Source of the DNA: a virus
DNA: 40,470 nt
Strand: one strand, 5' to 3'
IMG/VR virus record: IMGVR_UViG_3300046010_006281
Span: 1 to 40,470 of that record
The notes under the pieces were generated by a model. The model searched no databases and was not told where the DNA came from. It worked only from the letters and a program-made list of their open reading frames with translations. A program made the translations under genes and the position numbers. Shown piece by piece: positions 2,783 through 36,283 of the stretch (position 1 is its first letter; each line of letters opens with the position of its first letter).

Positions 2783-2789
2783 GTAATAT
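2762..2789 (+). promoter_or_regulatory. Candidate sigma70-type promoter for gene 44
   Basis: TTGAAA (2762-2767), a 16-bp spacer and TAATAT (2784-2789). The predicted start of transcription is around 2796-2797, which is the ATG of gene 44, so the message could be leaderless. No Shine-Dalgarno precedes that ATG. An independent promoter makes sense here because the antisense endonuclease separates gene 44 from the clamp gene. A second -10-like TATACT lies at 2791-2796. The match is moderate. Confidence 0.4.
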
Positions 2790-2796
2790 GTATACT

Positions 2797-3750
2797 ATGA
2801 ACATTACTACACAAACAATCGGACTTTGGACGGAGAAATACAGACCGCAAAAAGTGGCAGACTGTATTCTGCCGCAGGATACGCATGAAACGTTCATGCA
2901 GATGGTCGGGCGTGGCGAGCCGCAGAACCTCCTACTTAGCGGAGGGGCAGGCTGCGGAAAGACTTCTGTTGCGCGAGCACTGTGCAATGACTTGGGCTGC
3001 GACTACATTGTGGTCAACTGCTCCGAGGACGGCAACATTGACACGCTACGAACACGGATCCGAAACTTTGCGTCCACCGTGTCACTCACGGAGGGCGTGA
3101 AGAAGGTGGTGATATTGGACGAGTTTGACTATTCAAATGCTCAGTCCACTCAACCCGCCCTTCGCGGTTTCATTGAGGAGTTTGCGGACAACTGCCGCTT
3201 CATCCTCACGTGCAACTTCAAGAATCGCATCATTGAGCCGCTGCACTCACGATGCACGTGCATTGACTTCCGCATCCCCAACAAGCAGAAGCCGCAGATG
3301 GCAGCAAAGTTCTTGCAGCGTGCAGAGGACATCCTGAAGGCAGAGGGGATCGCTTACGAGCAGAAGGTGGTTGCGGAACTGATCACCAAGCACTTCCCTG
3401 ATTTCCGCCGCACCCTGAACGAGTTGCAGCGGTATTCGGTGAACGGGAAGATTGATGTGGGCATCCTACAGAGCATGGGGGATGTGCAGATCAAGGCATT
3501 GGTGAAGGCAATGAAGGGCAAGGATTTCCCGTCTGTGCGGAAGTGGGTGGTGGACAACTTGGACAACGATCAGACCCGCATCTACCGTTCCATCTACGAT
3601 TGCCTGTACGAGAACTTGGACGGCGCGTCCATCCCACAGGCAATCCTTATCCTTGCGGACTACCAATACAAGGCAGCGTTTGCGGCAGATCCGGAGATCA
3701 ACCTGACCGCGTGTGTGGTCCAGTTGATGATGGAGGTAAAGTTCAAGTGA
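2797..3750 (+). CDS. 44: Clamp loader large subunit, AAA+ ATPase (gp44)
   Basis: 317 residues from ATG 2797 (ATG 2788 would add MYT). EKYRPQKVADCILP matches the T4 gp44 N terminus. Walker A GGAGCGKT is at residues 49-56, Walker B ILDEFD ends at 111, and the SRC motif with the arginine finger is at R152. The C-terminal collar domain follows to the end, including the pentamer-forming region. Four gp44 plus one gp62 open the gp45 clamp and load it on primer-template junctions using ATP. The stop overlaps the GTG of gene 62. No ribosome-binding site is visible before the start. Confidence 0.95.
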   Translation: MNITTQTIGLWTEKYRPQKVADCILPQDTHETFMQMVGRGEPQNLLLSGGAGCGKTSVARALCNDLGCDYIVVNCSEDGNIDTLRTRIRNFASTVSLTEGVKKVVILDEFDYSNAQSTQPALRGFIEEFADNCRFILTCNFKNRIIEPLHSRCTCIDFRIPNKQKPQMAAKFLQRAEDILKAEGIAYEQKVVAELITKHFPDFRRTLNELQRYSVNGKIDVGILQSMGDVQIKALVKAMKGKDFPSVRKWVVDNLDNDQTRIYRSIYDCLYENLDGASIPQAILILADYQYKAAFAADPEINLTACVVQLMMEVKFK

Positions 3751-4636: not shown

Positions 4637-5344
4637 ATGAGCAGACTTGTGATCAAGTTCCCCACGCGGAACCGACCTGAAAAGTTCAAGACAGTGTTCA
4701 CGCGATACCTCACCTTCCTTAGCGGACGGCACGATACTCAATTCGTGATCACGATGGACACCGATGATCCCACCATGAACAACGACGAGATGCGTCAGTG
4801 GTTGGATACCCGTGCGAAGAATGCCCACATCACCTACCACTACGGTGAGTCCAAGACGAAGATTGAGGCTTGCAACGCGGACTTGGAGGGCGTGGACGGC
4901 GATGTCCTGATGCTCGCGTCCGATGACATGGTGCCTGTGCAGATGGGCTACGACGAGATCGTGTTCGGATGCTTTGGGCAGGCATTCCCTGATTACGATG
5001 GTGCGATCAAGTTCTGGGACGGACTGCGCCCGAAGGAAGATATGCTCATGACTCTTACGGTGATGGGGTTTCCCCTCTACCGCAAGTTCGGCTACATCTA
5101 CCACCCGTCATACAAGTCTCTGTATTGCGACAACGAGCAGACGCAGGTGTGTGCTGCCCTGAAGAAACTGGTGCGCTGCGATATGTGCATCATTCAGCAC
5201 CAGTGGAGCGGCGAGCCGTGGGATGAACTCCATGCTCGCAACGAGAACCGTGAAATGTATGGAGTAGACGGTGAGAACTTCAAGTCTCGCTCTGCTCGCA
5301 AGTTTGACATGGAGGAAATGTTCAATGCCAGTGCCAGCCGATGA
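4637..5344 (+). CDS. Glycosyltransferase-like protein, GT-A fold
   Basis: 235 residues. The start MSRLVIKFPTRNRPEKF is the beta-strand plus PTRNRP pattern typical of GT-A transferases. VLMLASDDMVPV contains the acidic metal/nucleotide-sugar motif. There is no membrane segment, so it is presumably cytoplasmic. It is preceded by GGAG at good distance and begins the sugar cluster directly after regA. Base composition still resembles the replication genes. Donor and acceptor cannot be told. A DNA-modifying role cannot be excluded, but no HMC-synthesis gene is present in the window. Confidence 0.75.
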   Translation: MSRLVIKFPTRNRPEKFKTVFTRYLTFLSGRHDTQFVITMDTDDPTMNNDEMRQWLDTRAKNAHITYHYGESKTKIEACNADLEGVDGDVLMLASDDMVPVQMGYDEIVFGCFGQAFPDYDGAIKFWDGLRPKEDMLMTLTVMGFPLYRKFGYIYHPSYKSLYCDNEQTQVCAALKKLVRCDMCIIQHQWSGEPWDELHARNENREMYGVDGENFKSRSARKFDMEEMFNASASR

Positions 5345-5966
5345 AATCAAGTTCAGCATTCTCATACTGTCCATTCCGTCCCGCATCAAGTCACTGACCG
5401 CTGCGGTAGAGCAGTTGCAGGCACAAGCCGATGGGACAGGACAACCGAAGTCTGTTGAGGTTCTTGTCCTCTTGGACAACCGCTCCAAGAGCATCTCAGA
5501 AAAGCGAAACGACCTGTTGGGCATTGCCCGTGGCAAGTATGTGGCATTCCTTGATGATGACGACGCGATCAGCAAGGATTACATGGAGAAGATCCTGAAG
5601 GCAATAGACGAGCATGACGGAGTGGACTGCATTACCTTCAACCAATGGTGCAGCCTGGATGGTGAGCCAATGGATGTGGAGTTTGGGGTCGGCAATCCTC
5701 ACGGGCAGTTGTGGCGCGACGAGGACGGATTCCTTGGAGACATCAAGCGACCACCCTACCATATGTGCGTGTGGCGGCGTGAGATTGCGCAGAGCGAGCC
5801 ATTCCGTCCCGTGTACGGCGCGAACGGGCAGTCCAGCGAGGACATTGATTGGCTACTGCGCCTGTATCCAAAGGTTCAAACGGAGCATCACATTCCCGAT
5901 GCCCTACACGGATACATCTACAGTTCGCAGACCACTACCTCCCTTGTCCCACAGGACCAGCAGTGA
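5325..5966 (+). CDS. Family 2-type glycosyltransferase
   Basis: 213 residues from ATG 5325, overlapping the previous gene by 20 nt. The in-frame extension upstream is a shadow. FSILILSIPSRIKSL is followed by VEVLVLLDNRSKSISEKRNDLL and then the acidic motif KYVAFLDDDDAI, the classic GT2 layout. DIDWLLRLYP near residues 175-185 resembles the conserved acid (ED/DxxW) of these enzymes. Soluble, no transmembrane helix. Donor and acceptor unknown. Its stop overlaps the GTG of the next gene. Confidence 0.85.
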   Translation: MPVPADEIKFSILILSIPSRIKSLTAAVEQLQAQADGTGQPKSVEVLVLLDNRSKSISEKRNDLLGIARGKYVAFLDDDDAISKDYMEKILKAIDEHDGVDCITFNQWCSLDGEPMDVEFGVGNPHGQLWRDEDGFLGDIKRPPYHMCVWRREIAQSEPFRPVYGANGQSSEDIDWLLRLYPKVQTEHHIPDALHGYIYSSQTTTSLVPQDQQ

Positions 5967-7933: not shown

Positions 7934-8740
7934 ATGATTGATATTGTGACTCTTTCTTGCAATGAAGACCCGATGTATTGGGAGTTTTGGAATCCTATCT
8001 CCAAACATTGGAAACAGGAGTTTGGTATACATCCTGTTCTCTTTTACTATGGGTCTGCAAATCCATCCCTGTCAGAAGAAAACGGAACCATCGTTTATCA
8101 TGATGTCATAGACGATATCCCAGACTATGTTGCTGCCACTTGGGGCAGATTTTGGGTAACAAAATTCTTCCCACAAAAAATGTGCTTGATCAGCGACATT
8201 GATATGTTTCCATTATCTCGTGGCTTTTTTTTGGAGAAATCCAATTCACAAGTTGACGTATACACGCATCTGAATGCGGACGCATATCATGTTGGCAACT
8301 TTGAGTGTTGGAAAGATGACGGTGTTACAGTTCCAGTGTGTTATCACTTGGCAACATCTGAAATGCTCAATTCTGTATATGGTTTTTCTGATACTTTTCA
8401 TGATGAAATTCAAAAACTACTAAGCCGAAACTACACAGAGTACAGGAGCGGATTTGCTTCAACCTCCGAGGCTCATCTGCAAAAGGCAAGTGCTGATCAT
8501 GGTGGTATGTGGGGAATTGATGAAATGTATTCTTCATCGCTGCTCCGTGAGTATTTTAGAGCAGGAGGAGTGGTAAGTGTTGGTCAACGAGTGCTTCCGC
8601 AGAACAGGTTGTGCAGATCACGAATAGGTTCTCAACTTTCTACTTTTAGTGCTGGAACACACATTGACTTTCATTCTGTTCGTCCTTACAATACTTACAA
8701 ACACGACATACAGCAACTGTTGAAAAGAGGAACTGCATGA
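7934..8740 (+). CDS. Putative glycosyltransferase with DxD motif
   Basis: 268 residues, 3 nt after the previous stop. The N terminus MIDIVTLSCNEDPMYWEFW and the acidic motif MCLISDIDMFPLSR (DxD after a hydrophobic strand) point to a GT-A fold. SADHGGMWGIDEMY later resembles the acceptor-side motif of such enzymes. I do not recognise the precise family. It is cytoplasmic by composition and lies in the AT-rich part of the sugar cluster, overlapping the HAD gene by 4 nt. Confidence 0.65.
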   Translation: MIDIVTLSCNEDPMYWEFWNPISKHWKQEFGIHPVLFYYGSANPSLSEENGTIVYHDVIDDIPDYVAATWGRFWVTKFFPQKMCLISDIDMFPLSRGFFLEKSNSQVDVYTHLNADAYHVGNFECWKDDGVTVPVCYHLATSEMLNSVYGFSDTFHDEIQKLLSRNYTEYRSGFASTSEAHLQKASADHGGMWGIDEMYSSSLLREYFRAGGVVSVGQRVLPQNRLCRSRIGSQLSTFSAGTHIDFHSVRPYNTYKHDIQQLLKRGTA

Positions 8741-9342
8741 AAATAGAGTGCGTGCTATTTGATCTTGATGGAGTTCTTGTAGATGCCTGTGAGTGGCACT
8801 ACAACGCACTAAACGAAGCGATGAATGAGATCGTTGGATTTCAAATATCCAGAGAAGATCACATCAACAAGTACAATGGACTACCTACAGCAGTCAAATT
8901 GAGTATGCTTGGAATTGAAACATCTACAGCATCGCGCATAGAAGCAGTAAAGCAAATGAAGACTTTGGAGATGATCGCTGAATATGGGAAAATCATGCCC
9001 GAGAAACAAGAATTGCATTCTTATCTTAAAAATCAAGGCATCAAGATAGCGTGTGTCACAAACTCCATTCACACAACAGCAATGGCTATGCTGCGTCAAA
9101 CTGATCAGATTAAGTTCATGAATTTGATTGTCAGTAATGGTGATGTGCAGAAAAATAAACCACATCCAGATTGTTACAATTTTGCAGTAAAAACTCTTGG
9201 AGTCAATCCGTCCGCGTGTTTATGTGTGGAAGATTCTCCGAAGGGAATAGAGGCTGCACGTGCATCATGCGTTCCAAACTTATGGATAGTTTCTAATACT
9301 TCCGATGTGACTCTTGAAAACTACAAGAAGGTCGTAACATGA
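8737..9342 (+). CDS. HAD-superfamily phosphatase/phosphomutase-like protein
   Basis: 201 residues. HAD motif I is FDLDGVLVDAC at the N terminus, motif II is ACVTNS, the motif III Lys is in KNKPHPDCY, and motif IV is CVEDSPKGIEAA. With an alpha-helical cap after motif I it belongs to the beta-phosphoglucomutase/GPH-like subfamily. Next to a sugar nucleotidyltransferase it may dephosphorylate or isomerise a sugar phosphate before activation. Substrate unknown. Overlaps both neighbours by 4 nt. Confidence 0.9.
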   Translation: MKIECVLFDLDGVLVDACEWHYNALNEAMNEIVGFQISREDHINKYNGLPTAVKLSMLGIETSTASRIEAVKQMKTLEMIAEYGKIMPEKQELHSYLKNQGIKIACVTNSIHTTAMAMLRQTDQIKFMNLIVSNGDVQKNKPHPDCYNFAVKTLGVNPSACLCVEDSPKGIEAARASCVPNLWIVSNTSDVTLENYKKVVT

Positions 9343-10058
9343 ATATACTCATACCTATGGCTGGAGAGGGCAGTAGATTTGCAAAGGAAGGTTATACCTT
9401 TCCGAAACCGTTGATTGATGTGGATGGCAAGCCAATGATCCAACAGGTAGTAGAAAATCTCAAGTTTTCTGCTGATTTCATCTTCCTTGTTCGTAAAGAA
9501 CATCTGCACAAGTACAAAGGTTTATCTGTTACCCTGCAAAACATCACGGGTGGACGAACTAATATCATTGAAGTTGATGGATTAACTGAGGGGGCTGCTT
9601 GTACTGCCCTTCTTGCAAAAGAACACATTAACACCGATGATGATCTGTTGATTGCCAATTCCGATCAAATAATCTATTACCGTGCAGAAAATTTTCTGAC
9701 TATGAAAAATATGACAACAGCGGACGGAATTGTTTTTACATTTAATGCGGTTCATCCCAAGTGGTCTTTTGCCAAAATTGGCGAATCTGGATTTGTGACA
9801 GAGGTGGCTGAAAAGGTTCCAATTTCAAATGTTGCAACCTGCGGCATCTATTGGTATCGCAAAGGAAAAGACTTTGTTGATGCAGCAGAAAGCATGATTG
9901 TAAAAAATATTCGTGTGAATAACGAATTCTATATTGCACCAGTGTACAATGAAATGATTGGCAGAGGAAAAACTGTTATTCCGTTTTTCGTTCAGGAGAT
10001 GCACGGTATTGGAACTCCAGAAGACTTGAATGCGTTTCTGTCAAAGAGAGAAAGATGA
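9339..10058 (+). CDS. Sugar-1-phosphate nucleotidyltransferase
   Basis: 239 residues. The NTP-transferase signature is MNILIPMAGEGSRFAKEGYT with the Lys in FPKPLIDVDGKPMI. DDDLLIANSDQI supplies the metal-binding acid. The C terminus IGTPEDLNAFL is the usual end of the family. It makes an NDP-sugar (or related alcohol) from a phosphate precursor and an NTP. The nucleotide is not readable. Because an RfbH-type enzyme downstream needs a CDP-sugar, a cytidylyltransferase is an attractive guess, but the N terminus is not a clear RfbF match. Confidence 0.88.
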   Translation: MNILIPMAGEGSRFAKEGYTFPKPLIDVDGKPMIQQVVENLKFSADFIFLVRKEHLHKYKGLSVTLQNITGGRTNIIEVDGLTEGAACTALLAKEHINTDDDLLIANSDQIIYYRAENFLTMKNMTTADGIVFTFNAVHPKWSFAKIGESGFVTEVAEKVPISNVATCGIYWYRKGKDFVDAAESMIVKNIRVNNEFYIAPVYNEMIGRGKTVIPFFVQEMHGIGTPEDLNAFLSKRER

Positions 10059-10502: not shown

Positions 10503-11194
10503 GAGATCTGCTAATCGTGTCATCCCATTTCAATGAAGACTTGTCGTGGTTAGTCAACCAAGACAAGTACGACTACATGGTGTATTCCAAGAAACCGCAA
10601 GAGGCACTTGATCAAGGTGTCCACTACAGAAAATTAGAGTTCGTGCCCAATCGCGGTCAAGATCATTCGTCGTACTACAAGTTCATACTTGACAATTATG
10701 ATATGCTTCCAGACTACATTGCTTTCTGTCACGGTCACAACCACTCATGGCACATGGACAAAACGATCATTGAAGCGATAGACTCATACGATGGTAGCGA
10801 TTACTTTAATTTGAATAACTCGTATTTCAGGAACATATTCCATGATGATGGATGTGGTGACGAATCACACAAGAAACAGTGGGAAAACATCAAGTTCATA
10901 TGCAAAAAGATAGAGTTGGACATACCAAAGTATCTTGAGCACAGTATGTGCTGTCAATTTGTCACCAAGCGGGAGTGCATTCTGAGACACCCTTGCTCTT
11001 TCTACAATACTTGCTACGCTTACATGATGGAGCAGGCAGACATGGATAACATAAGGGCATCCTTGGTATTTGAGCAACTTTGGTACTTCATACTTACGGG
11101 CAAATCAGTTGAGCCTGCACTAGTGGTTCCTAACATAATTGACGAGCGTGGTTGGAGGCGCGATGATCTCAGAGAAAAGTTTGGTGTGGCATGA
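10499..11194 (+). CDS. DUF3431-like protein, putative glycan-related
   Basis: 231 residues from ATG 10499 (GGAG at 10489-10492, spacing 6 nt), preferred over ATG 10487, which is placed within that site. Signature region: FVPNRGQDHSSYYKFILDN followed by LPDYIAFCHGH and a His-rich HNHSWHM, resembling DUF3431 proteins, which are often glycosyltransferase-like. Activity unknown. Overlaps the epimerase gene by 4 nt, so it is in the same operon. Confidence 0.65.
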   Translation: MRDLLIVSSHFNEDLSWLVNQDKYDYMVYSKKPQEALDQGVHYRKLEFVPNRGQDHSSYYKFILDNYDMLPDYIAFCHGHNHSWHMDKTIIEAIDSYDGSDYFNLNNSYFRNIFHDDGCGDESHKKQWENIKFICKKIELDIPKYLEHSMCCQFVTKRECILRHPCSFYNTCYAYMMEQADMDNIRASLVFEQLWYFILTGKSVEPALVVPNIIDERGWRRDDLREKFGVA

Positions 11195-12009
11195 TTAGTG
11201 TCTATGGTGGTCGCGGGTTTGTAGGCACTCGCTACTGTGAGATGTTTCCTGATGCTTTTGTCATCCCAAGGGAAGAGAACGTTCCTGCTTCATCCGAGGT
11301 TCTGTATTTCATAAGCACAACTCACAACTACAATATCTTCACAGAACCACACAAGGACATTGACACCAACCTGAGCAAGTTGATAGCAGTCTTGGAGGAG
11401 TGCCGAAAGCGCGATCCCAATACCACATTCAATTTTGTCAGTTCTTGGTTTGTATATGGCATGAATTGCACGTTGAATACAAAGGAAACTGACCCCTGTG
11501 ATCCTCGTGGCTTCTATTCCATAACAAAGAGAGCGGCAGAGCAGATGCTGATATGCTATTGTAACACTTTTGGAATGAAGTACAGGATACTCAGACTCAC
11601 CAATATCATAGGCGAAAGCGATCCCAAAGTGTCTTCACAAAGAAACGCGTTGCAGTACATGATTAGTTTGCTGAAGAAAAACGAGCCTGTGAAACTGTAC
11701 GACAATGGCTCAAACATCAGGGATTTCATGTACGTTAATGATGCTTGCCGCGCCATTCGGGTGTGCTTGGATAGCAGTCCAGTGAATGAAATAGTTAACA
11801 TCAGCAACACCCAACCCACACCAATAGGATCAATCATACGGTACTGCAAGGAAAAGTTGGGTTCTCAGTCTGAACTTGTCTCAATTGATGCACCACACTT
11901 TCATAAAGTGGTGCAAGTAACTGATGTGTGCCTGAATACAGACAAACTCAAGTCATACGGATACGTTCCCTCCATACATACGATGCAGGCAGTGGACAGG
12001 CTATTGTGA
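11191..12009 (+). CDS. NAD(P)-dependent sugar epimerase/reductase (extended SDR)
   Basis: 272 residues. The Rossmann motif is YGGRGFVGTRY, the active site is FVSSWFVYG then YSITK (YxxxK), and the C-terminal part includes IRDFMYVNDACRAI, typical of nucleotide-sugar epimerases/dehydratases. It likely reduces or epimerises an NDP-keto-sugar. With the RfbH-type enzyme it could supply the final 4-reduction to a 3,6-dideoxy sugar, but substrate cannot be read from sequence. Confidence 0.87.
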   Translation: MISVYGGRGFVGTRYCEMFPDAFVIPREENVPASSEVLYFISTTHNYNIFTEPHKDIDTNLSKLIAVLEECRKRDPNTTFNFVSSWFVYGMNCTLNTKETDPCDPRGFYSITKRAAEQMLICYCNTFGMKYRILRLTNIIGESDPKVSSQRNALQYMISLLKKNEPVKLYDNGSNIRDFMYVNDACRAIRVCLDSSPVNEIVNISNTQPTPIGSIIRYCKEKLGSQSELVSIDAPHFHKVVQVTDVCLNTDKLKSYGYVPSIHTMQAVDRLL

Positions 12010-12027: not shown

Positions 12028-12267
12028 ATGTACATTGAAACCAAGCAGAGAAGTTGGAGCAAATCTGTGATATGGAGGCTGATTGCAACAGCCAATAGTT
12101 TTGCCATTCTAACGGCAGCAATTACAGGTAGCCCCCTTTGGAATGCAATCTGCATGAATATCACAGGGCTGTTTGTGTACTACTTCTACGAGCGCATTTG
12201 GAACAGGATATCGTGGGGTAAAATTACAGTGAAAGACTCAAGTCAGAATGGAGAGATTCATGAATAA
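12028..12267 (+). CDS. DUF2061 small membrane protein
   Basis: 79 residues. KSVIWRLIATANSFAILTAAITG and IWNAICMNITGLFVYYFYERIWNRI-like pattern match the DUF2061 family, a two-helix inner-membrane protein ending in YYxxERIWNRIxWG. It is found next to sugar-nucleotide genes in some bacterial and phage loci. Function unknown. It is the only clear membrane protein in the cluster. Its end overlaps the next gene by 8 nt. Confidence 0.85.
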   Translation: MYIETKQRSWSKSVIWRLIATANSFAILTAAITGSPLWNAICMNITGLFVYYFYERIWNRISWGKITVKDSSQNGEIHE

Positions 12268-13231
12268 GGTGATGATCGTTGGTGGTGCTGGATACATCGG
12301 CACTCTTCTGTCTTCTGAACTGCATGACAGAGGCTATGATGTTTCAATTGTGGATCTTCTGTGGTTTGGAAACAATCTTCCAACTCACCTGAAGACAAAG
12401 GTAAGGCAGGCAGATGTGTTTGATCTAACACAGAAGGACTTGGAGGGGTTTCACTCCGTGGTGTTTATTGCTGGTCTGTCAAACGATCCGATGGCAGACT
12501 ACTCGCCTTCAAAGAACTTCATTTCTAATTCAGCCAGTCCTGCGTACCTTGCGTACATTGCAAGAAAGGCTGGCGTTCGTCGCATGGTCTATGCGAGCAG
12601 TTGTTCCGTCTATGGATACGCTGTTGACGAGTTTTATGACGAAAACGGACCAACCACTGCCGTATATCCGTATGGAATATCAAAACTACAAGGGGAGCGA
12701 TCTGTTGTTCAGATGGCTACGGACGATTTCTCCGTGATCGCTTTGAGAAAGGGTACTGTTTCTGGAGTCAGTCCACGAATGAGATTTGATTTGGTGGTTA
12801 ACTCCATGTTCAAAAGCGCACTCACCACAAACACCATAACAATGAGCAACCCTTCAATATGGCGACCCATTCTCTCAATCAGGGATTGTGTTTCCGCTTA
12901 CATGAGAGCAATTGAGTCTGACTGCTCTATATCTGGAGTATTCAACGTTGCATCAGAAAACTGCACAGTGGGAACTATAGCGGATGTTGTGAAGGCAACA
13001 TTTGAGGAAGAGTTGGGAACCAAGCCAACCATCATAAACAACAACGTAAAGGATGTTAGAAATTACAAGGTGAACTGCGACAGGGCAGCAACTGTATTGG
13101 GATTCGTTCCAAAATACGGTCTTAGGAACATTGTTGTTGACTTGATCAGGAATCGTGATAAGTTTGGCGACATGAACAATCCCGCTTACTACAACATCAA
13201 GACATTCGTGAACATGGAGACATCAAGATGA
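12260..13231 (+). CDS. NAD-dependent nucleotide-sugar epimerase/dehydratase
   Basis: 323 residues from ATG 12260 (GGAGAG at 12250-12255). The Rossmann motif is VGGAGYIGTLL, the catalytic part is YASSCSVYGYAVDEF then YGISKLQGE (YxxxK with K), and RPILSIRDCVSAYMRAI is the usual substrate-side motif. An extended SDR similar to UDP-glucose 4-epimerase-type or CDP-sugar-modifying enzymes. It immediately precedes the RfbH-type dehydratase (ATGA overlap), which suggests they act in one pathway. Confidence 0.9.
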   Translation: MNKVMIVGGAGYIGTLLSSELHDRGYDVSIVDLLWFGNNLPTHLKTKVRQADVFDLTQKDLEGFHSVVFIAGLSNDPMADYSPSKNFISNSASPAYLAYIARKAGVRRMVYASSCSVYGYAVDEFYDENGPTTAVYPYGISKLQGERSVVQMATDDFSVIALRKGTVSGVSPRMRFDLVVNSMFKSALTTNTITMSNPSIWRPILSIRDCVSAYMRAIESDCSISGVFNVASENCTVGTIADVVKATFEEELGTKPTIINNNVKDVRNYKVNCDRAATVLGFVPKYGLRNIVVDLIRNRDKFGDMNNPAYYNIKTFVNMETSR

Positions 13232-14556
13232 TACAGGTAAATGTTCAAAAGGTCACTGACGACCTTCACGCAGCCATAAAGACACGCCTCGCAATGAACA
13301 AGCGCGAGTGGATACCAGGAGAGAGTTGGGTTCAGTATGCTGGAAACTACTTCACGGAAGAGGAGTACATCGCGGCTATAGATTGCCTCCTTAACGGTTG
13401 GCTTGCTCTTGGCGAGAACGGAATACGGTTTGAGAACAAGTTCTGTGCCCATTTGGGAAAGGATCACGGATGTCTGTCAAACAGCGGTTCCAGTGCCAAT
13501 CTGCTCATGGTCACAGCATTGAGTTCAAAGAGACTGTGGAACTTGCCAAAGGGATCCAAGATCATCACGCCTGTGGCTGGATTTCCTACAACCATAAATC
13601 CCATAGTTCAGAACGGGTATGAGCCTGTGTTTGTGGATATTGAACTGAACACCCTCAACCTTGATGTGAACCAATTGGAAGCCGCTGCAAAATCAGGCGC
13701 AAAAGCACTGATATTTGCCCATGTGTTGGGCAATCCGCCAAACATGGATGCAGTGATGGACATAGTTAATCGCTACAATCTCATACTTCTTGAGGACTGC
13801 TGCGATGCGTTGGGCAGCACTTACAAGGGAAAACTTCTAGGATCATTTGGTGAGATTGCTACTTGCTCATTCTATCCCGCTCATCATATCAGCATGGGGG
13901 AGGGTGGATTCGTTGCCACACGCACCAAGGATCAGGAAATGGTTGTAAAGAGCCTTCGTGAGTGGGGAAGAGGTTGCTATTGCTCTGGAAAGGCTGCTTC
14001 TTGCTTGAAGAATGGAATGTGCAAGAAGAGGTTCAGCAATTGGCTACCTTCTCTTCCAAACGAGATATTTGATCACAAGTTTGTGTACGAGGAGATAGGC
14101 TATAACCTAAAGCCTTTGGACTTGCAGGCTGCTATGGGAATTACTCAATTAGACAAGTTGAGTTGGATCATTGAGCGCAGAAAGCACAACTACGAGAGAC
14201 TGTTTGACATTTTCTCAAAGTATGAGGACAAGTTCATCCTTCCAAGAGCAACAGAGGGAGCAGATCCGTCTTGGTTTGCCTTTCCAATGACGGTGAAAGA
14301 AGGAGCAGGTTTCAAGAGGAGCGATCTGACTGGTTACTTTGAGGAGAACAAGATTCAGACGCGCAACTACTTTGCAGGAAACATACTTCTACAGCCAGCA
14401 TACAGCGGTTTCAGTTCTGTTGACCCTGTGAAGGCATTTCCGAATGCCACCACAGCAACAACCAACACTTTCTTTTTGGGCGCGAGTCCGGTCATCACTG
14501 ATCAGCAAATTGACTACATAGAATGTGTTCTTTCGTCTTTCATGCAGGGAAAATAA
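13228..14556 (+). CDS. rfbH: RfbH/E1-type CDP-4-keto-6-deoxyglucose 3-dehydratase
   Basis: 442 residues, DegT/DnrJ/EryC1 fold. In place of the PLP-binding Lys there is His220 in FYPAHHISMGEGG, the hallmark of E1-type enzymes that use PMP. Cys192, Cys250 and Cys252 give a C-X57-C-X1-C spacing, with Cys259 and Cys265 candidates for the fourth ligand, as in the [2Fe-2S] cluster of E1. GRGCYC and KKRF flank the insert as in RfbH, followed by DHKFVYEEIGYNLKPLDLQA. E1 removes the 3-OH from CDP-4-keto-6-deoxy-D-glucose, with electrons from a reductase (E3) not seen here, on the way to 3,6-dideoxyhexoses. The substrate is inferred from the family. Confidence 0.88.
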   Translation: MIQVNVQKVTDDLHAAIKTRLAMNKREWIPGESWVQYAGNYFTEEEYIAAIDCLLNGWLALGENGIRFENKFCAHLGKDHGCLSNSGSSANLLMVTALSSKRLWNLPKGSKIITPVAGFPTTINPIVQNGYEPVFVDIELNTLNLDVNQLEAAAKSGAKALIFAHVLGNPPNMDAVMDIVNRYNLILLEDCCDALGSTYKGKLLGSFGEIATCSFYPAHHISMGEGGFVATRTKDQEMVVKSLREWGRGCYCSGKAASCLKNGMCKKRFSNWLPSLPNEIFDHKFVYEEIGYNLKPLDLQAAMGITQLDKLSWIIERRKHNYERLFDIFSKYEDKFILPRATEGADPSWFAFPMTVKEGAGFKRSDLTGYFEENKIQTRNYFAGNILLQPAYSGFSSVDPVKAFPNATTATTNTFFLGASPVITDQQIDYIECVLSSFMQGK

Positions 14557-18087: not shown

Positions 18088-18093
18088 TTGGTC

Positions 18094-19023
18094 ATGATCC
18101 GACACCTTGGTTACGCTTGTCAGAACCTGTCCCTTGCGCAAACCCGCAAGCCCAAGGACAGGCTTTTCACAGACCGAACCCTGCGCATGGATCGGTTCTC
18201 GTTGGAGAGGGTAGGAGAACTCGGTGAGCGCAATGCTGCCGATCTCCTACCCATTCTCCAATGGAACGTCGCGAACGGCATACGGTTCTTCCGCATCGGC
18301 AGCGGGATGTTTCCGTTCATGGATCACCCTGACTTGGGGTATTCGGTTGGTGAACTGCGGACAGAACACGCCGATGCCATCCGCGCACACCTGAAGGGTG
18401 CAGGCGAATACGCAAAGGCACACGGGTTGCGCCTGTCGTGCCATCCGGGTCCGTATACGTGCATTGCGTCACCCAACACCGACACAGTGGACAAGAGCGT
18501 GAAGTGCTTGGAGATGCACTCGCTTATTGCCGACCTGTTGGGCTACGGCGACGAGTTTGCCATCAACATCCACATGGGTGGCGTATACGGTGAGAAGGAG
18601 CGGACAGCAGATCGCTTTGTCCGTAACTTCTTCAACCTTTCTGAACCTGTGCGCGGTCGGCTCACACTTGAGAACGACGACAAGGCTTCCATGTGGAGCA
18701 TGACCGAACTGTATGAATCGGTTGCAGCGCATTGCCCTGTGAAACTGGTGTTGGACATTCACCACCACCGTTTCTGCAACCGCGAAACGCTGCGCGAAGC
18801 GGCAGAGATGGCATTCAGCACATGGGAGGGCTTCTGCGAGATTCCGAAGGTTCACTACTCGGAGTCCAAGCCTGGTCCGCGACCGCAAGCCCATTCAGAC
18901 TACGTTAGAGGGGAGATACCTGTGCTGTCGGATACAGTGCAGTATGATGTCATGCTTGAAGCCAAGTGCAAGGACTTGGCACTTTTGGAATACAGAAAGG
19001 CGCATCTACCGTGTTTGGTGTAA
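18094..19023 (+). CDS. uvsE: UV-damage endonuclease UvsE/UvdE
   Basis: 309 residues. MIRHLGYACQNL at the N terminus is the usual beginning of UvdE proteins and fixes the start at ATG 18094. LTLENDDK, VLDIHHHRFCN and KVHYSESKPG supply the TIM-barrel metal-binding Glu, Asp and His residues of the family. The enzyme nicks DNA 5' of cyclobutane dimers and 6-4 photoproducts, starting repair without photoreactivation. No Shine-Dalgarno sequence precedes the ATG. The stop lies 13 nt inside the next gene, in another frame. Confidence 0.95.
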   Translation: MIRHLGYACQNLSLAQTRKPKDRLFTDRTLRMDRFSLERVGELGERNAADLLPILQWNVANGIRFFRIGSGMFPFMDHPDLGYSVGELRTEHADAIRAHLKGAGEYAKAHGLRLSCHPGPYTCIASPNTDTVDKSVKCLEMHSLIADLLGYGDEFAINIHMGGVYGEKERTADRFVRNFFNLSEPVRGRLTLENDDKASMWSMTELYESVAAHCPVKLVLDIHHHRFCNRETLREAAEMAFSTWEGFCEIPKVHYSESKPGPRPQAHSDYVRGEIPVLSDTVQYDVMLEAKCKDLALLEYRKAHLPCLV

Positions 19024-21571: not shown

Positions 21572-24094
21572 ATGGACTTCTACACACACGTTGACATTCG
21601 CGGCAACTCCATCCTGTATCGTGGATGGCGGAACGGGCAGCGTGTCCACCAACGCGTTCCGTTCTCGCCCACCCTCTACATTCCTGGGAATGTGGACAGC
21701 GGAGACACAGGGTTGCGCACCATTCACGGGCATCCAGTGGAGTCCATAGAGTTTGGTGACATCAACGAAGCACGGGAGTTTGTGGACCAATTCAAGGATG
21801 TGAGCAACTACGCGGTGTTCGGAAACACCAACTACGTGTACCAGTATCTGTACAAGGAGTTTCCGCATGAGGTGGACTACGACTTCTCCCGCCTGAAGGT
21901 TGCCACCATTGACATTGAGACTTCCTGCGAGGGTGGTTTCCCGTCCATAGAGTCGCCCGACGAGAAGATCATTGCCATCACCGTGATGATGGACGGCAAG
22001 ACCTATGTGTTTGGCTTGGGGGAGTTCACGCTTGAGGGTGATGGTGTAATAGCGGTGTCGTATGATGACGAGCGGGAACTGCTGTCCGCGTTCGTTGACA
22101 CGTGGAAGCACCTTGATCCCGACATCGTGACGGGATGGAACGTGCGATTTTTTGACATTCCGTATATGGTTGCGCGAATGGAGCGGTTGGAGGAGGGGTG
22201 GAGTTCCTCCCTGTCGCCGTGGGGTCGCTTGCGGCAGAGCGTCGTGAACCGCATGGGTCGGGATCAGACGGTGCATACCATCAGCGGATTGGCAGTGCTT
22301 GACTACCTTGAACTGTATCAGAAGTTCACCTACGTAAAGCAGGAGTCGTATTCCCTCAACCATATTTCCAAGGTGGAGTTGGGCGAGGAGAAACTGTCGT
22401 ATGCGGAATACGAAACCATTCAGGAGTTCTACACGCAGGACTTTCAGAAGTTCGTGGAATACAACGTTCAGGACGTTGCCCTTGTGCAGAAGTTGGAGAG
22501 CAAACTCAAACTGATGGAATTGGCAGCAGCACTTGCGTATTCCGCACGGGTGAACTTTGAGGATGTGTTTTCTCAGGTGCGGACATGGGATGCCATCATT
22601 CATCACCACCTGTTGAGCAAGGGGATCGTGATTCCCCGCAAGGAGGAAGCGGAGAAGGAAGACCAATACGCAGGCGCGTTCGTGAAGGAGCCGCTGGTGG
22701 GCAAGCACGATTGGGTAGTGTCGTTTGACCTCAACTCGCTGTATCCGCACCTCATCATGCAATACAACATCTCCCCTGACACGAAGGGAAACTTTACACG
22801 TGGAAGCCTCACACCCGATGCGGTGCTGCGGGGTGATCCGTCTGTGGAGCGGTTGGTGGAGGCAGCACGGGAAACTGATTCGTGCCTTGCCGCAAACGGT
22901 GTGGGCTTCACGCGACGGGTGCGGGGCTTCCTCCCTGAACTGATGGACTCCATGTATGCAGAGCGCAAGCGGTTCAAGGAATTGATGATTGACGCGCAGC
23001 GGCGGTTGGAAGGCTTGGACAAGAGCGCACCCCTCCACGAACGGCGCAAGATTGAATACGAGATTTCCAAATACAAGAACTTCCAACTGGTCCGCAAGAT
23101 TCAGTTGAACTCCGCTTACGGCGCAATCGGCAACGAGTATTTCCGATTCTTTGACGTTGATCTTGCGGAAGCCATTACCCTGTCGGGGCAGTTGAGCATC
23201 CAATGGATAGGCGAATCCCTCAACCGCTTCCTGAACAAGATATTGGGAAGCAGCGGCGAGGACTATGTGATCGCATCAGACACCGACTCCGTGTATCTCC
23301 GCTTGGGTGGTGTGGCAGCGCGGTGCAAGTCCCCCGACAAGGGCAAGATCGTTGATTTCCTTGACGGGTTCTGCAACGAGGTGCTGCAACCGTTCATCAA
23401 CAAGGAGTTTGAACGCTTGGCACAGATCCTAAACGCATACGAGAACCGCATGGTGATGGGTCGCGAAGTGATTGCGGAGAAGGGCGTGTGGACTGCGAAG
23501 AAGCGGTATATGCTTGCGGTATGGGATTCCGAAGGTGTCCGCTACAAGTCTCCAAAGTTCAAGATCATGGGCATTGAGACTGCCCGCTCGTCCACTCCTG
23601 CGTATGTGCGCAAGGCACTGAAGGCAGCGGTGGAGACTGCGCTGCTCCGCGACGAGTCCGCGCTCCACGACTTGGTGAAGGCAACAGAGAGCGAGTTCAA
23701 GAAGTTGCCTGTGGAAGAGGTTGCGTTCCCAAGATCCGTTTCCAAGATGGGCGACTACGCAAACGAGGGATCGGTGTACCGCAAGTCAACACCCATCGCG
23801 GTGAAGAGTGCGCTACTGCACAATCATCTCCTGAAGACGCACAAGTTGACGCGCAAGTACCGTGCGATTGGCGAGGGCGAGAAGATGAAGTTCGTGTACC
23901 TTAAGATTCCCAATCCCATTCACGAATCAGTGATCGGATTCACCACAACGCTTCCAAAGGAGTTCGGCATTCACAAATACGTGGATTACGATATGCAGTT
24001 TGACAAGGCATTTCTTGAACCGCTGCGCTCCATCACAACCGCAATCGGTTGGACACCACAACCCCAAAGCACACTTGAATCGCTATTTGGATAG
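21572..24094 (+). CDS. 43: Replicative DNA polymerase, family B (gp43)
   Basis: 840 residues, somewhat shorter than T4 gp43 (898). Proofreading exonuclease: D114-I-E116-T (Exo I), N190...D195 (Exo II, NVRFFD), and Y297...D301 (Exo III). Polymerase: motif A FDLNSLYP with D386, motif B with K509 and N513 in KIQLNSAYG, motif C SDTDS with D570 and D572. All catalytic residues are present, so the enzyme is complete and not split by an intron or endonuclease. It ends in a short hydrophobic tail (TLESLFG) that resembles the clamp-binding C terminus of T4 gp43. The ATG matches family start; only a weak GGA precedes it. Confidence 0.97.
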   Translation: MDFYTHVDIRGNSILYRGWRNGQRVHQRVPFSPTLYIPGNVDSGDTGLRTIHGHPVESIEFGDINEAREFVDQFKDVSNYAVFGNTNYVYQYLYKEFPHEVDYDFSRLKVATIDIETSCEGGFPSIESPDEKIIAITVMMDGKTYVFGLGEFTLEGDGVIAVSYDDERELLSAFVDTWKHLDPDIVTGWNVRFFDIPYMVARMERLEEGWSSSLSPWGRLRQSVVNRMGRDQTVHTISGLAVLDYLELYQKFTYVKQESYSLNHISKVELGEEKLSYAEYETIQEFYTQDFQKFVEYNVQDVALVQKLESKLKLMELAAALAYSARVNFEDVFSQVRTWDAIIHHHLLSKGIVIPRKEEAEKEDQYAGAFVKEPLVGKHDWVVSFDLNSLYPHLIMQYNISPDTKGNFTRGSLTPDAVLRGDPSVERLVEAARETDSCLAANGVGFTRRVRGFLPELMDSMYAERKRFKELMIDAQRRLEGLDKSAPLHERRKIEYEISKYKNFQLVRKIQLNSAYGAIGNEYFRFFDVDLAEAITLSGQLSIQWIGESLNRFLNKILGSSGEDYVIASDTDSVYLRLGGVAARCKSPDKGKIVDFLDGFCNEVLQPFINKEFERLAQILNAYENRMVMGREVIAEKGVWTAKKRYMLAVWDSEGVRYKSPKFKIMGIETARSSTPAYVRKALKAAVETALLRDESALHDLVKATESEFKKLPVEEVAFPRSVSKMGDYANEGSVYRKSTPIAVKSALLHNHLLKTHKLTRKYRAIGEGEKMKFVYLKIPNPIHESVIGFTTTLPKEFGIHKYVDYDMQFDKAFLEPLRSITTAIGWTPQPQSTLESLFG

Positions 24095-24466: not shown

Positions 24467-24708
24467 TGTCAAAAATCAATAGCCAATATCTGAAAGGTCT
24501 TCTTCAAGAAAAGAAAGACCTGCTCCGCGATGAAATGCGGATGATGATCCTTGACAAAGGCTCATCGTTGGCTATGATTCGTGAGCGTGAGAGTGAGATG
24601 GTTCTGATTGACGAGCAGATTAAAGCATTGGAGAAACATTATGAAACTGAAAGACATTTTGAAGGTAGCAGGCAACAAGTACGGAGCAATCGCATCGGAG
24701 GGGCTTGA
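24466..24708 (+). CDS. Small coiled-coil protein upstream of uvsX
   Basis: 80 residues from ATG 24466, overlapping the previous stop (TGATG). The middle is a long amphipathic helix (LLQEKKDLLRDEMRMMILD and onward) with charged heptads. Its 3' end overlaps the uvsX start by 68 nt in another frame, so the last part may be constrained by uvsX. Possibly a recombination accessory protein, based only on position. Confidence 0.55.
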   Translation: MSKINSQYLKGLLQEKKDLLRDEMRMMILDKGSSLAMIRERESEMVLIDEQIKALEKHYETERHFEGSRQQVRSNRIGGA

Positions 24709-25711
24709 CGGCAGCGACGTAAAGTCATTCATCTCCACAGGATCGTATTCGTTCAATGCGCTCCTCAGCGGCTCCATCTACGGCGGGATTCCCGACAACA
24801 AGATCATTGCGCTTGCAGGTGAGCAAGCCACAGGCAAGACCTACTTTGCCCTGAACGTGGTGCGAGAGTTCCTCAACTCCAGTCCACAGGCAATGGTGCT
24901 GTACTTTGACACTGAGCAGGCAATCACCCTTGATATGCTTCAGTCTCGTGGAGTGGACACGGAGCGGGTAGCCGTGCTGCCTGTTGCAACCATTGAGGAC
25001 TTCCGCCAGCAGTGCATTTCCGTGGTGGACAAGTATTTGGAGGAGGACAAGGACACGCGACCACCCATGATGATCGTGCTTGACTCCCTTGGAATGCTTT
25101 CCACCGAGAAGGAAATATCGGATACCGCAGAGGGCAAGAACGTGCGCGATATGACCCGTGCGCAGGTTGCGAAGGCAGTGTTCCGTGTCCTCACCATCAA
25201 GTTGGGACACGCTCGCATCCCTCTCCTCATGACGAACCACACTTACGATGTGATTGGCGCGTATGTGCCCACGAAGGAGATGGGCGGCGGTAGTGGTTTG
25301 AAGTATGCCGCATCCACCATCATCTACCTGTCCAAGAAGAAGGACAAGGTGGACGGTGAGGTGGTGGGCAACATCATTCACTGCAAGACCTACAAGAGCC
25401 GACTCACGAAGCAGGACAAGATGGTGGATGTGCAGTTGAACTTTGAGAGCGGGCTGAACAAGTTCTACGGGCTGACGGAGATTGCCCTGAAGCACGGCAT
25501 CTTCAAGAAGGTGTCCACGAAGATTGAATTGCCCAACGGCAAGACGGTGTTTGAGACACAGATCAACCGTGATCCTGAGAAGTATTTCACGGAGGATGTG
25601 CTGAAGGCAATTGACGCAGCAGCGCGGAAGGAGTTCTGCTACGGTTCAGAGGAGAAGGAGGAGGCAGACGCGAACAACGACGAATTCAGGAGGACCGATG
25701 GAGAGTCCTGA
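24641..25711 (+). CDS. uvsX: RecA-like recombinase UvsX
   Basis: 356 residues from ATG 24641 (GGAG at 24631). The in-frame extension upstream to 24608 overlaps another gene and is not family-like. Walker A GEQATGKT is at residues 60-67, then VLYFDTEQAI, Walker B MMIVLDSLGML, and the DNA-binding loop region IPLLMTNHTYDVIG followed by KEMGGGSGLKYAAS. It forms filaments on ssDNA and drives strand exchange, as in recombination-dependent replication of T4. Acidic C-terminal tail (EEKEEADANNDE) is typical of RecA proteins. Confidence 0.96.
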   Translation: MKLKDILKVAGNKYGAIASEGLDGSDVKSFISTGSYSFNALLSGSIYGGIPDNKIIALAGEQATGKTYFALNVVREFLNSSPQAMVLYFDTEQAITLDMLQSRGVDTERVAVLPVATIEDFRQQCISVVDKYLEEDKDTRPPMMIVLDSLGMLSTEKEISDTAEGKNVRDMTRAQVAKAVFRVLTIKLGHARIPLLMTNHTYDVIGAYVPTKEMGGGSGLKYAASTIIYLSKKKDKVDGEVVGNIIHCKTYKSRLTKQDKMVDVQLNFESGLNKFYGLTEIALKHGIFKKVSTKIELPNGKTVFETQINRDPEKYFTEDVLKAIDAAARKEFCYGSEEKEEADANNDEFRRTDGES

Positions 25712-25916
25712 AGCGTACGAGAATCGCAGTCTGCGCCGTAAGGTTGTGGAACTGATTGCCGAGCGTGATGCCGCACGAAAGGAGTTGTGCGAGCATCATT
25801 TCGGCGGCGAGCCAAGGCTTGAGGATTTGGAACGAGTTGCCCAATCCCGTGGTTGGGGATACCTTTACGCACTTGATCGGCTGTCGCGTCTTGATGAGGA
25901 GTTGGGTCTAAAGTGA
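25698..25916 (+). CDS. Small hypothetical protein between uvsX and helicase
   Basis: 72 residues from ATG 25698, with an excellent AGGAGG (25689-25694). Helical and charged: YENRSLRRKVVELIAERDAA followed by LYALDRLSRLDEELGL. It overlaps uvsX by 14 nt and the helicase GTG by 4 nt, so it is in the same operon. T4 has gene 40 at this place, but no similarity is visible. Function unknown. Confidence 0.65.
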   Translation: MESPEAYENRSLRRKVVELIAERDAARKELCEHHFGGEPRLEDLERVAQSRGWGYLYALDRLSRLDEELGLK

Positions 25917-27325
25917 GTCAGATTGACAAGACAATCATTGGTGGTCTGCTTGGAGACTCCGACTACTGCAAGCGGGTGATTCCGTTCTTGCAGGAGGAGT
26001 ATTTCCATGATCGGGTTGATCGTGCGCTGTTCCGTGCGATCAAGGGTTTCGTGGACGAATACAAGGGCATCCCCACAAAGGAAGCACTTGCAATCTCGCT
26101 GGAGAGCAACAGCAACCTCACCGAAGACGAGTTCAAGCGGTGCAAGGATCTGCTGACGGAGGCAGCGCGGAGTCCCAAGCAGGACACCCAATGGCTTGTT
26201 GACACCACAGAGAAGTTCTGCAAAGACAAGGCAATCTACAATGCCATTCTTCAATCCATTCAAATCATTGATGGAAAGGACAAGGTTCATACCCCTCATG
26301 CTCTTCCCGAAATTCTCTCACAGGCTCTTGCGGTTTCTTTTGATACTAACGTTGGTCATGATTATTTGGAGGATTATGACAGCCGCTACGAGTTCTACCA
26401 CCGAGTTGAAAGAAAGATCCCGTTTGATCTAGAGATGTTCAACGTGGTGACAAAGGGCGGCATCACACCCAAGACCCTCAACATCATCATGGCAGGCACG
26501 GGTGTGGGCAAGTCCCTGTTCATGTGCCATCACGCGGCAGCGTGCCTCATGCAGAACAAGAATGTCCTGTACATTACCCTTGAGATGTCAGAGGAGCGTA
26601 TCGCAGAGCGTATTGACGCAAACATCATGGACATCACGATGGACGACTTGGCACTGCTGTCGCGTGAAATGTACGAGTCCCGCCTGAAGTCCTGCACCCG
26701 TGGCGTAAGCGGCAAACTGATCGTGAAGGAGTATCCCACATCCGCAGCGAACGTGGGGCATTTCCGAATCCTGTTGGACGAGTTGCGGATGAAGAAGCAG
26801 TTCACGCCTGACATCATCTTCGTGGACTACATCAACATCTGCTCCTCTGCGCGGTTCAAGAGCGGCAACAACATCAACTCCTACGGCTACGTGAAAGCCA
26901 TTGCAGAGGAGTTGCGCGGCTTGGCAATGGAGCGGGACGTTCCCATCGTGAGCGCAACGCAGGTGAATCGTGCAGGCTTCTCGTCCACCGATGTTGACCT
27001 CACAGACACAAGCGAATCCTTCGGATTGCCGCACACCGCAGACCTGATGATTGCTCTCATCACCACAGAGGAATTGGAGAAGAGCGGGCAGATCATGGTG
27101 AAGCAGTTGAAGAACCGCTACAACAGCAAGGGCGCGAACAAGAAGTTCATCGTGGGGCTGAACTACGCCAAGATGAAGTTCTACGATATTGACTTGGGGC
27201 AGTCCAAGACTCTCACAGACTCAAATATTACGGAGGACGAGGAGAACTCCTTTGGCGCAGGCTACGGCAAGCGTGACTTCAAGAGCAAGTTCGGCAAGCG
27301 CGACACTTCGGACTGGACCATATGA
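25913..27325 (+). CDS. 41: Replicative DNA helicase, DnaB-like (gp41)
   Basis: 470 residues from GTG 25913 (GTGA overlap), near T4 gp41 (475). An N-terminal helical domain is followed by the RecA-like motor with Walker A GTGVGKS at residues 195-201, LYITLEMSEERI, Walker B IIFVDYINIC, and VSATQVNRAGF, all conserved in the T4 family. The hexamer unwinds DNA 5'-3' ahead of polymerase 43 and activates primase 61, encoded next. Complete, no intein. Confidence 0.96.
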   Translation: MSQIDKTIIGGLLGDSDYCKRVIPFLQEEYFHDRVDRALFRAIKGFVDEYKGIPTKEALAISLESNSNLTEDEFKRCKDLLTEAARSPKQDTQWLVDTTEKFCKDKAIYNAILQSIQIIDGKDKVHTPHALPEILSQALAVSFDTNVGHDYLEDYDSRYEFYHRVERKIPFDLEMFNVVTKGGITPKTLNIIMAGTGVGKSLFMCHHAAACLMQNKNVLYITLEMSEERIAERIDANIMDITMDDLALLSREMYESRLKSCTRGVSGKLIVKEYPTSAANVGHFRILLDELRMKKQFTPDIIFVDYINICSSARFKSGNNINSYGYVKAIAEELRGLAMERDVPIVSATQVNRAGFSSTDVDLTDTSESFGLPHTADLMIALITTEELEKSGQIMVKQLKNRYNSKGANKKFIVGLNYAKMKFYDIDLGQSKTLTDSNITEDEENSFGAGYGKRDFKSKFGKRDTSDWTI

Positions 27326-28311
27326 GTGCGTTCATTGACAAGAAATACATCAACATGGCATCGCCCCAATTGGAGCGATTCAAGTGGAAGAGCATTGATT
27401 TGGCAAATTGCCGCTGTCCCCTTTGCGGAGACTCGCAGAAGAACAAGCGAAAGGCACGTGGCTTCTTTTTCCCCAAGAAGAACGACTACTTCTACAAGTG
27501 CCACAACTGTGGCGTGGGGCATTCCCTCTACCGCTTCCTGGAACACGTGGCTCCTGCCCTTGCCCACGAATACGCACTGGAGCGGTGGCGCAACGGGGAG
27601 AATGGGAAGAGCAACTACATCAAGCCCCAAGAGACTGCCATCATTCCCAAGGCAGAGATTCGCCTGCCCCGTGTGGACGCGCTGCCAACGGATCACATCG
27701 GACGGCGGTATTTGGAGTCGCGTAAAGTGCCGTGCCTTGACCGCTTCTATTTTTCAGATTCGTTTGGCGATTGGGTTCGCAGCATTGACCCTACATACAC
27801 ATCCATACCGAATGACGAGCGTATCGTCATCCCCTTCGTAAACAAAAGGGGAGAACTCCTCGCTGCACAGGGAAGATGCCTCAGCGGTTCTCCAGGATCC
27901 ATCCGATACATCACCGTAAAGTTTGCAAAGGACGGCAGGGCAATCTACGGTGAGGATCGCGTGGACTACTCCAAGAGGGTCTATGCAGTTGAAGGTCCGA
28001 TTGATTCTGTATTTTTGGATAATGCAGTTGCTCTTGCTGGCAGTGAACTGTCAGATGGCATTCGCCTTTTTCGCGACTGTGTTGTTGTGTACGACAATGA
28101 GCCGCGTAATGTGGAAATCGTTTCCAAGATGGATCGTGCCATCGCGGACGGACACACGGTTTGCGTGTGGGGCGAGGGCGTGGGAGAGAAAGACATAAAT
28201 GACATGATTCTTGGTGGGCGTTCGGCAGGGGAAGTCCAACGGATCATTGACGAGTGTTCGTGCAGTGGGTTGACAGCAAGGGCAAGATTTTCACAATGGA
28301 GAGTCAAATGA
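27322..28311 (+). CDS. 61: DNA primase (gp61)
   Basis: 329 residues, ATGA overlap with the helicase. The N-terminal zinc ribbon uses C32, C35, C60 and C63 (CPLC...CHNC). The catalytic Toprim core follows, with YAVEGPIDSVFL (acidic EGP motif) and VVVYDNEPRN supplying metal-binding acids, then KDINDMILGG. It lays down short RNA primers for lagging-strand synthesis together with gp41 and is close to the 342 residues of T4 gp61. Its last bases overlap the start of thyX. Confidence 0.95.
   Translation: MSAFIDKKYINMASPQLERFKWKSIDLANCRCPLCGDSQKNKRKARGFFFPKKNDYFYKCHNCGVGHSLYRFLEHVAPALAHEYALERWRNGENGKSNYIKPQETAIIPKAEIRLPRVDALPTDHIGRRYLESRKVPCLDRFYFSDSFGDWVRSIDPTYTSIPNDERIVIPFVNKRGELLAAQGRCLSGSPGSIRYITVKFAKDGRAIYGEDRVDYSKRVYAVEGPIDSVFLDNAVALAGSELSDGIRLFRDCVVVYDNEPRNVEIVSKMDRAIADGHTVCVWGEGVGEKDINDMILGGRSAGEVQRIIDECSCSGLTARARFSQWRVK

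Positions 28312-29028: not shown

Positions 29029-29033
<5 letters not shown>
28308..29033 (+). CDS. thyX: Flavin-dependent thymidylate synthase ThyX
   Basis: 241 residues from ATG 28308 (GGAGAG just upstream; it overlaps the primase stop; ATG 28296 is too near that site). LARHQHWTPFAHPQITIRI and MNEVSRRY are ThyX blocks. The signature RHRxxxS is altered to K95-H96-Q97 with one extra residue before S106. ThyX makes dTMP from dUMP with FAD and methylene-THF, complementing dUTPase. Its stop overlaps the CCTAAATA motif before the collagen-like gene. Confidence 0.93.
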
Positions 29034-31923
<2,890 letters not shown>

Positions 31924-36014: not shown

Positions 36015-36037
36015 TTCTAATCTAGAAAGGAATAGTC

Positions 36038-36262: not shown

Positions 36263-36283
36263 GCCGCGCCTAACTACTAGGTT

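Follow-up and report, generated by a model that had tools for sequence, protein, structure and literature searches.

An RfbH/E1-type 3-dehydratase in the glycan island of a T4-like phage, with relatives whose gene context points to dTDP- or UDP-linked sugars

Introduction

A gene for an iron-sulfur sugar 3-dehydratase (rfbH) in phage DNA raises the question of which nucleotide sugar a viral enzyme of this kind would deoxygenate, and with which electrons. The gene was studied in the window, which is the whole stretch of viral DNA analysed here (40,470 bases). That phages carry rfbH is already known: the gene is annotated in cultivated cyanophages and is published as an auxiliary gene, being among the listed marine viral auxiliary genes (PMC10653327). 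The new elements are a separate viral RfbH lineage and its dTDP-type gene context. Among open-licence papers, none was found on the separate viral lineage, the longer loop or the dTDP-type partners, and no description of such a phage dideoxyhexose pathway was found for bacteria.

The window and its glycan island

The window is a virus fragment carrying the following T4-like replication genes:

1437-2186: clamp
2788-3750: clamp loader
21572-24094: DNA polymerase
24608-25711: UvsX-like recombinase
25913-27325: DnaB-like helicase

The DNA polymerase is about 50% identical to Synechococcus myovirus polymerases. The window also encodes a GIY-YIG endonuclease (2171-2752), placed between the genes for the clamp and its loader but on the minus strand, as well as a UvdE UV endonuclease (18088-19023) and a ThyX thymidylate synthase (28254-29033). 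A collagen-repeat protein, and after it long proteins with many GISASG/GATLG-like repeats, are found at 29043-30704 and 33615-38314, probably as tail fibres. The glycan island is placed between the clamp loader and the polymerase. It comprises glycosyltransferases, an FkbM methyltransferase, a HAD phosphatase, a nucleotidyltransferase, two SDRs and rfbH:

5271..5966, plus strand: GT2-like glycosyltransferase of the rfbH glycan island (PF00535, phrog_8858)
8737..9342, plus strand: HAD-family phosphatase (PF13419, 8.5e-32)
9339..10058, plus strand: sugar nucleotidyltransferase-like protein, not RfbF (PF00483)
11191..12009, plus strand: short extended SDR with active site S-S-W-FVYG...YSITK, candidate 4-keto-reductase of the pathway
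12248..13231, plus strand: extended SDR with active site S-S-C...YGISK (Epimerase domain and motif)
13228..14556, plus strand: RfbH/E1-type NDP-4-keto-6-deoxyhexose 3-dehydratase (PMP and [2Fe-2S]), 442 aa
14569..15753, plus strand: GT2-family glycosyltransferase with a TPR-like region (PF00535, phrog_13126)

The assignment of the 9339 nucleotidyltransferase as RfbF is unsupported, as it does not reach the RfbF cut-off. The SDR at 12248 is of the epimerase/4-keto-reductase type and not a 4,6-dehydratase. It overlaps rfbH by ATGA, and a counterpart 80% identical to it is found at the equivalent place in the closest relative of the window (L018). The S-S-W type of SDR found at 11191 occurs as a family in 28 of the 57 viral rfbH loci; a scan with the single protein reached four close loci only.

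Family, fold and catalytic residues

The rfbH ORF is uninterrupted from the ATG at 13228 to the stop at 14556. An earlier note, made from the sequence of the window, had assigned its product to the E1/RfbH family, and this assignment holds. The protein reaches 475.3 bits with the curated RfbH model NCBIfam NF011936 (cut-off 423), and E1 (3bcx) is its best PDB sequence match (E=1e-109). The structure prediction and alignment to E1 that the note had put forward as a check agree with this: the AlphaFold model computed with 86 sequences has a pLDDT of 92.5, and its top three Foldseek matches are all E1 (3bcx/3bb8; TM 0.89/0.94, rmsd 1.9-2.6). The iron-sulfur loop is the weak part of the model, with a block pLDDT of 56-69 with 86 sequences and below 50 with 20 sequences.

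The cysteines 191, 192, 213, 250, 252, 259 and 265, as well as His219 and His220, are present at their named positions. The residues proposed for catalysis and for the cluster are encoded as follows, where A3 is the alignment of 86 sequences and A1 the viral alignment:

13801..13803, plus strand: Cys192, first proposed [2Fe-2S] ligand, invariant in A1
13885..13887, plus strand: His220, in place of the Schiff-base lysine of aminotransferases, aligned with E1 H220 and invariant in A3
13975..13983, plus strand: Cys250-Tyr-Cys252, second and third proposed ligands, both Cys invariant in A3
14020..14022, plus strand: Cys265 (the Cys of CKKRF), fourth proposed ligand, invariant in A3

The replacement of the PLP lysine by His220 and the motif C192-X57-C250-X1-C252, both read by the note, thus stand in the alignment with E1. 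The histidine and four cysteines are present in 57/57 viral homologs, and the Cys192 equivalent is kept in 74 of 75 non-redundant bacterial proteins. For the fourth cysteine the note had left a choice between 259 and 265. At position 259 (codon 14002-14004) the viral homologs have C, L, F, K, N or D, which rules this cysteine out; the fourth ligand is assigned to Cys265 because the other four Cys positions are kept while 259 varies. The published ligand numbering of E1 was carried over by the alignment made here, in which the four motif cysteines of 3bcx fall on C192, C250, C252 and C265. The full motif of the window protein is C192-X57-C250-X1-C252-X12-C265. With His220 the protein lacks the Schiff-base lysine of a PLP sugar aminotransferase, and with all four cysteines it departs from the ColD type, in which iron-sulfur cysteines are missing. 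Sequence and predicted fold together confirm the ORF as a member of the RfbH/E1 family of PMP/[2Fe-2S] 3-dehydratases, and 3-deoxygenation is its likely reaction.

A separate viral lineage

The loop before the last cysteine, which the note had described as longer than that of the bacterial enzyme, is X12 in the window protein, X11-13 in all viral E1-type proteins and X7 in E1. Among 80 homologs from the genome collection, X7 is found in 72 (57 by motif search and 15, reading CWC or CCC, judged by eye), X10 in four proteins of Clostridia-type or archaeal origin and X11-13 in four, of which two are on phage-like contigs. The viral/bacterial contrast in loop length is far beyond chance. The longer loop is a mark of the viral RfbH lineage.

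A tree of 78 proteins (quick search, SH-aLRT support only) joins 40 genome-collection proteins in one group with a support of 99. The bacterial proteins had been selected for resembling the viral query and are no random sample. The viral sequences are placed outside the group of 40, together with three MAG contigs (L065, L066 and L067), and the window protein belongs to a well supported virus-only set. The phage origin claimed for the gene is supported, and the position of the window protein deep within that set rules out recent capture from a host. The viral clade is diverse, with identities down to about 40%, and its catalytic residues are invariant. About 20 positions are fixed differently in viral and bacterial proteins (e.g., L143/Y, V166/T, G57/F, Y381/L and S420/Y), as would be expected from a change of specificity, though they are no proof of one. 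L065, from a MAG labelled Pirellula, has three genes in common with phage loci (the three-gene set of the phages), and L066, from a MAG labelled Maricaulis, has fourteen, with most of its genes also present in L046 and L047. Since both carry genes of phage loci, they are probably phage contigs binned into MAGs.

Pathway partners and the nucleotide carrier

The substrate named by the note, CDP-4-keto-6-deoxyglucose, is not supported. Neither glucose-1-phosphate cytidylyltransferase (RfbF) nor CDP-glucose 4,6-dehydratase (RfbG) was found over its cut-off in any of the 46 related viral records, some of which may be fragments. The family searches returned weak, sub-cut-off matches only, which also speaks against a hidden RfbF or RfbG among the neighbours. 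This absence lowers the claim of a CDP substrate and leaves the family assignment unaffected.

The 4,6-dehydratases carry an active-site code in which [ST]DE denotes dTDP- or UDP-glucose and [ST]DK denotes CDP-glucose (PMC8987622, Table 1). Within 10 kb of viral rfbH the 4,6-dehydratase is of the DE type in 38 loci and of the DK type in none, whereas near bacterial rfbH it is DK in 54 loci and DE in one, the contigs L065 and L066 being scored as viral. The Fisher test of this contrast (p = 2e-25) overstates the evidence because the loci are related, and the contrast is therefore best read as one lineage-level difference. In 27 loci the DE gene overlaps rfbH or lies within 70 bases of it, on the upstream or the downstream side depending on the locus. 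Among phage glycan islands found through their glycosyltransferases, a DE gene is present in 8 of 9 with rfbH against 1-2 of 30 without (p ~6e-6, on related loci); one of the two DE islands without rfbH comes from the L055 contig, on which rfbH falls outside the fetched piece. A control set anchored on UvsX was nearly empty of rfbH and is uninformative alone. Bacterial rfbH loci contain RfbG-like genes in 50 cases, RfbF-like genes in 41 and a short flavoprotein reductase in 23, these neighbour clusters being named from sequence by inspection and not by family search.

In the cyanophage S-H68, both RmlB (381.7 against 365.1) and RmlC (221.3 against 155.75) pass their own cut-offs. Such a pair of RmlB and RmlC beside rfbH might instead belong to a rhamnose-like pathway of its own. 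The S-H68 RfbH has the four cysteines and, like other distant cyanophage copies, falls under the NF011936 cut-off, with a score of 359.7. For the other phage DE genes scored, the RmlB model gives 294-320 bits, short of its cut-off of 365, and so UDP-glucose is also possible; their CDP-type scores are only 69-81. None of the structures used in this analysis reveals the nucleotide bound by E1. A nearby 4,6-dehydratase of the [ST]DE type indicates a dTDP-linked pathway, and the genomic context of the relatives points to dTDP or UDP as the carrier for viral RfbH. Neither type of 4,6-dehydratase is encoded in the window, nor is one found near rfbH in L018. In both, the S-S-C type SDR overlapping rfbH occupies the spot that the DE gene has in close relatives. 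As the window lacks this step, the keto-sugar would have to be supplied by the host or by genes outside the contig.

Additional sugar genes are found in viral rfbH loci. Thirteen of them (L009/L010, L015, L025, L027-L029, L036, L037, L039, L042, L046 and L055) encode an acetolactate-synthase-type ThDP enzyme, with 28-42% identity to one near a bacterial rfbH; taken with a 4-keto-3,6-dideoxy sugar, it suggests yersiniose-like sugars with a branch at C4. In 13 viral loci, rfbH has a split transketolase-like pair (206 and 158 aa) nearby (e.g., L021:12271-12891 and L033:12897-13373); a two-carbon transfer to a keto sugar is possible.

Electron supply

That no E3 reductase is visible, as the note had remarked, extends to the relatives. 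No Fer2 or NAD_binding_1 (FNR-type) domain was found in the 46 viral records including the window, and no NAD_binding_1 in four phage records, among them a complete 206-kb cyanophage. Near 23 bacterial rfbH genes (e.g., L123) a 229-aa flavoprotein reductase-like protein is encoded, which is not long enough for a typical E3 with its ferredoxin domain. The E3 search of viral sequences gave no match to this short bacterial reductase. The cyanophages S-H68 and RN05-S, both with rfbH, also encode a stand-alone plant-type ferredoxin. Cyanophages often encode ferredoxin, so its presence in these two is only suggestive. Viral RfbH would draw its electrons from the host or, in cyanophages, perhaps from a phage ferredoxin.

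Proposed pathway and alternative explanations

The favoured explanation, which we consider fairly probable, is a working RfbH/E1-type 3-dehydratase in a T4-like phage glycan island, acting by a dTDP-linked, SpnQ-like route independent of E3. The literature on E1, ColD and SpnQ describes a PMP Schiff base and a His-catalysed elimination of the 3-hydroxyl, followed by a two-electron reduction via the cluster (PMC8987622). By this chemistry, PMP would form a Schiff base with the NDP-4-keto-6-deoxyglucose, His220 would take the C4' proton and the 3-hydroxyl would depart. A [2Fe-2S] cluster on C192/C250/C252/C265 would then deliver two electrons, giving an NDP-4-keto-3,6-dideoxyhexose. One of the neighbouring SDRs (11191 or 12248) would act on this sugar, either by reducing it at the 4-keto position or by epimerisation, and the island glycosyltransferases would then add it to a glycan on the surface of the host or virion. 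In the viral lineage the carrier would more likely be dTDP than CDP, with the host pool of dTDP-glucose/dTDP-4-keto-6-deoxyglucose as source of substrate. General ferredoxin or flavodoxin systems of the host would supply the electrons, as reported for SpnQ, in place of a dedicated E3. In the window phage, cluster assembly, activity, dTDP specificity, the electron donor, and the final sugar and its use are all what we infer.

The strongest competitor is an enzyme that has kept the E1 role: host RfbF and RfbG would supply CDP-4-keto-6-deoxyglucose, host E3 would be used, and the phage enzyme would complete the CDP-3,6-dideoxyhexose pathway of the host or divert it. The full-length similarity is strongest to CDP-specific E1, the RfbH cut-off is passed, and a CDP-type 4,6-dehydratase is near 54 of the 78 bacterial relatives examined. 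Nevertheless, no viral locus has a CDP-type partner, the viral branch stands apart with its own substitutions and longer iron-sulfur loop, and the gain to the phage would be limited to hosts already producing CDP-dideoxyhexoses; on balance this reading is unlikely. The missing reductase also admits a dual activity like that of SpnQ, which is reported to transaminate if given PLP and glutamate but no reductant (PMC8987622), so that an amino sugar would be formed by transamination at C4 in place of a 3-deoxysugar. Against this, E1 gave no transamination under the conditions of SpnQ (PMC8987622), position 220 is His and not Lys, and the four cluster cysteines are kept in every viral homolog. The retention of the histidine and cysteines suggests selection for the redox reaction, and transamination is regarded as improbable. 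More improbable still is a leftover host gene that is inactive or moonlights and is heading for loss: the pathway is incomplete in the window, but the ORF is intact, the catalytic residues are invariant across the diverse viral clade and the coupling with sugar genes is conserved.

Beyond the favoured dTDP-linked route, a broader proposal is held tentatively, as a serious possibility rather than an expectation. It supposes that a virus-specific E1 lineage was rewired from CDP to dTDP (or UDP) sugars and from E3 to general ferredoxin, which would provide a short route from host rhamnose-pathway intermediates to 3,6-dideoxyhexoses and, in those phages that have ThDP or transketolase-like genes near rfbH, on to branched sugars. 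If true, phages make 3,6-dideoxyhexoses, which are important in O-antigen recognition, by a dTDP-type pathway, and annotation as CDP-4-keto-6-deoxyglucose 3-dehydratase gives the viral genes the wrong substrate. As the cultivated S-H68 and RN05-S carry the same enzyme family, the question is testable in laboratory phage-host pairs.

Comparison with known systems

The closest known enzyme is the Yersinia CDP-4-keto-6-deoxy-D-glucose 3-dehydratase, named E1, DdhC, AscC or RfbH (PDB 3bcx, 3bb8). The window protein shares with it the fold, the catalytic His220, the four-cysteine motif with the X57 and X1 spacings and the framework of a PMP enzyme. Viral RfbH differs from E1 in having X12 for X7 before the last cysteine, in its separate branch and in its neighbours: RfbF, RfbG and E3 are missing nearby, and the viral kin adjoin dehydratases of the dTDP/UDP type.

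ColD, the GDP-4-keto-6-deoxymannose 3-dehydratase, has the superfamily, the replacement of Lys by His and 3-deoxygenation in common with viral RfbH, but enzymes of its type lack the iron-sulfur cysteines present in the window protein. A gene of Synechococcus phage S-CAM7 (L149, 8950-10083) is annotated as CDP-4-keto-6-deoxy-D-glucose-3-dehydrase; its product misses the C250/C252 iron-sulfur motif and the gene adjoins those for GDP-mannose dehydratase and fucose synthetase. For both reasons it is taken as ColD-like and probably misannotated.

The annotated rfbH genes of the Synechococcus phages S-H68, S-B05, S-B43, RN05-S and RB11-B belong to the same enzyme family and also lie in a phage glycan island. 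Their products are only about 42-44% identical to that of the window, and that of S-H68 has the histidine as well as the four cysteines. Unlike the window, S-H68 and RN05-S carry genes for a 4,6-dehydratase and a 3,5-epimerase (the RmlB and RmlC cut-offs were applied to S-H68).

SpnQ, the dTDP-4-keto-2,6-dideoxyglucose 3-dehydratase, is likened to viral RfbH by description and not by sequence. Its substrate lacks the 2-hydroxyl, unlike the one proposed for the viral enzyme. SpnQ is reported to be a [2Fe-2S]/PMP 3-dehydratase that acts on a dTDP sugar and uses general ferredoxin/flavodoxin reductases instead of E3 (PMC8987622).
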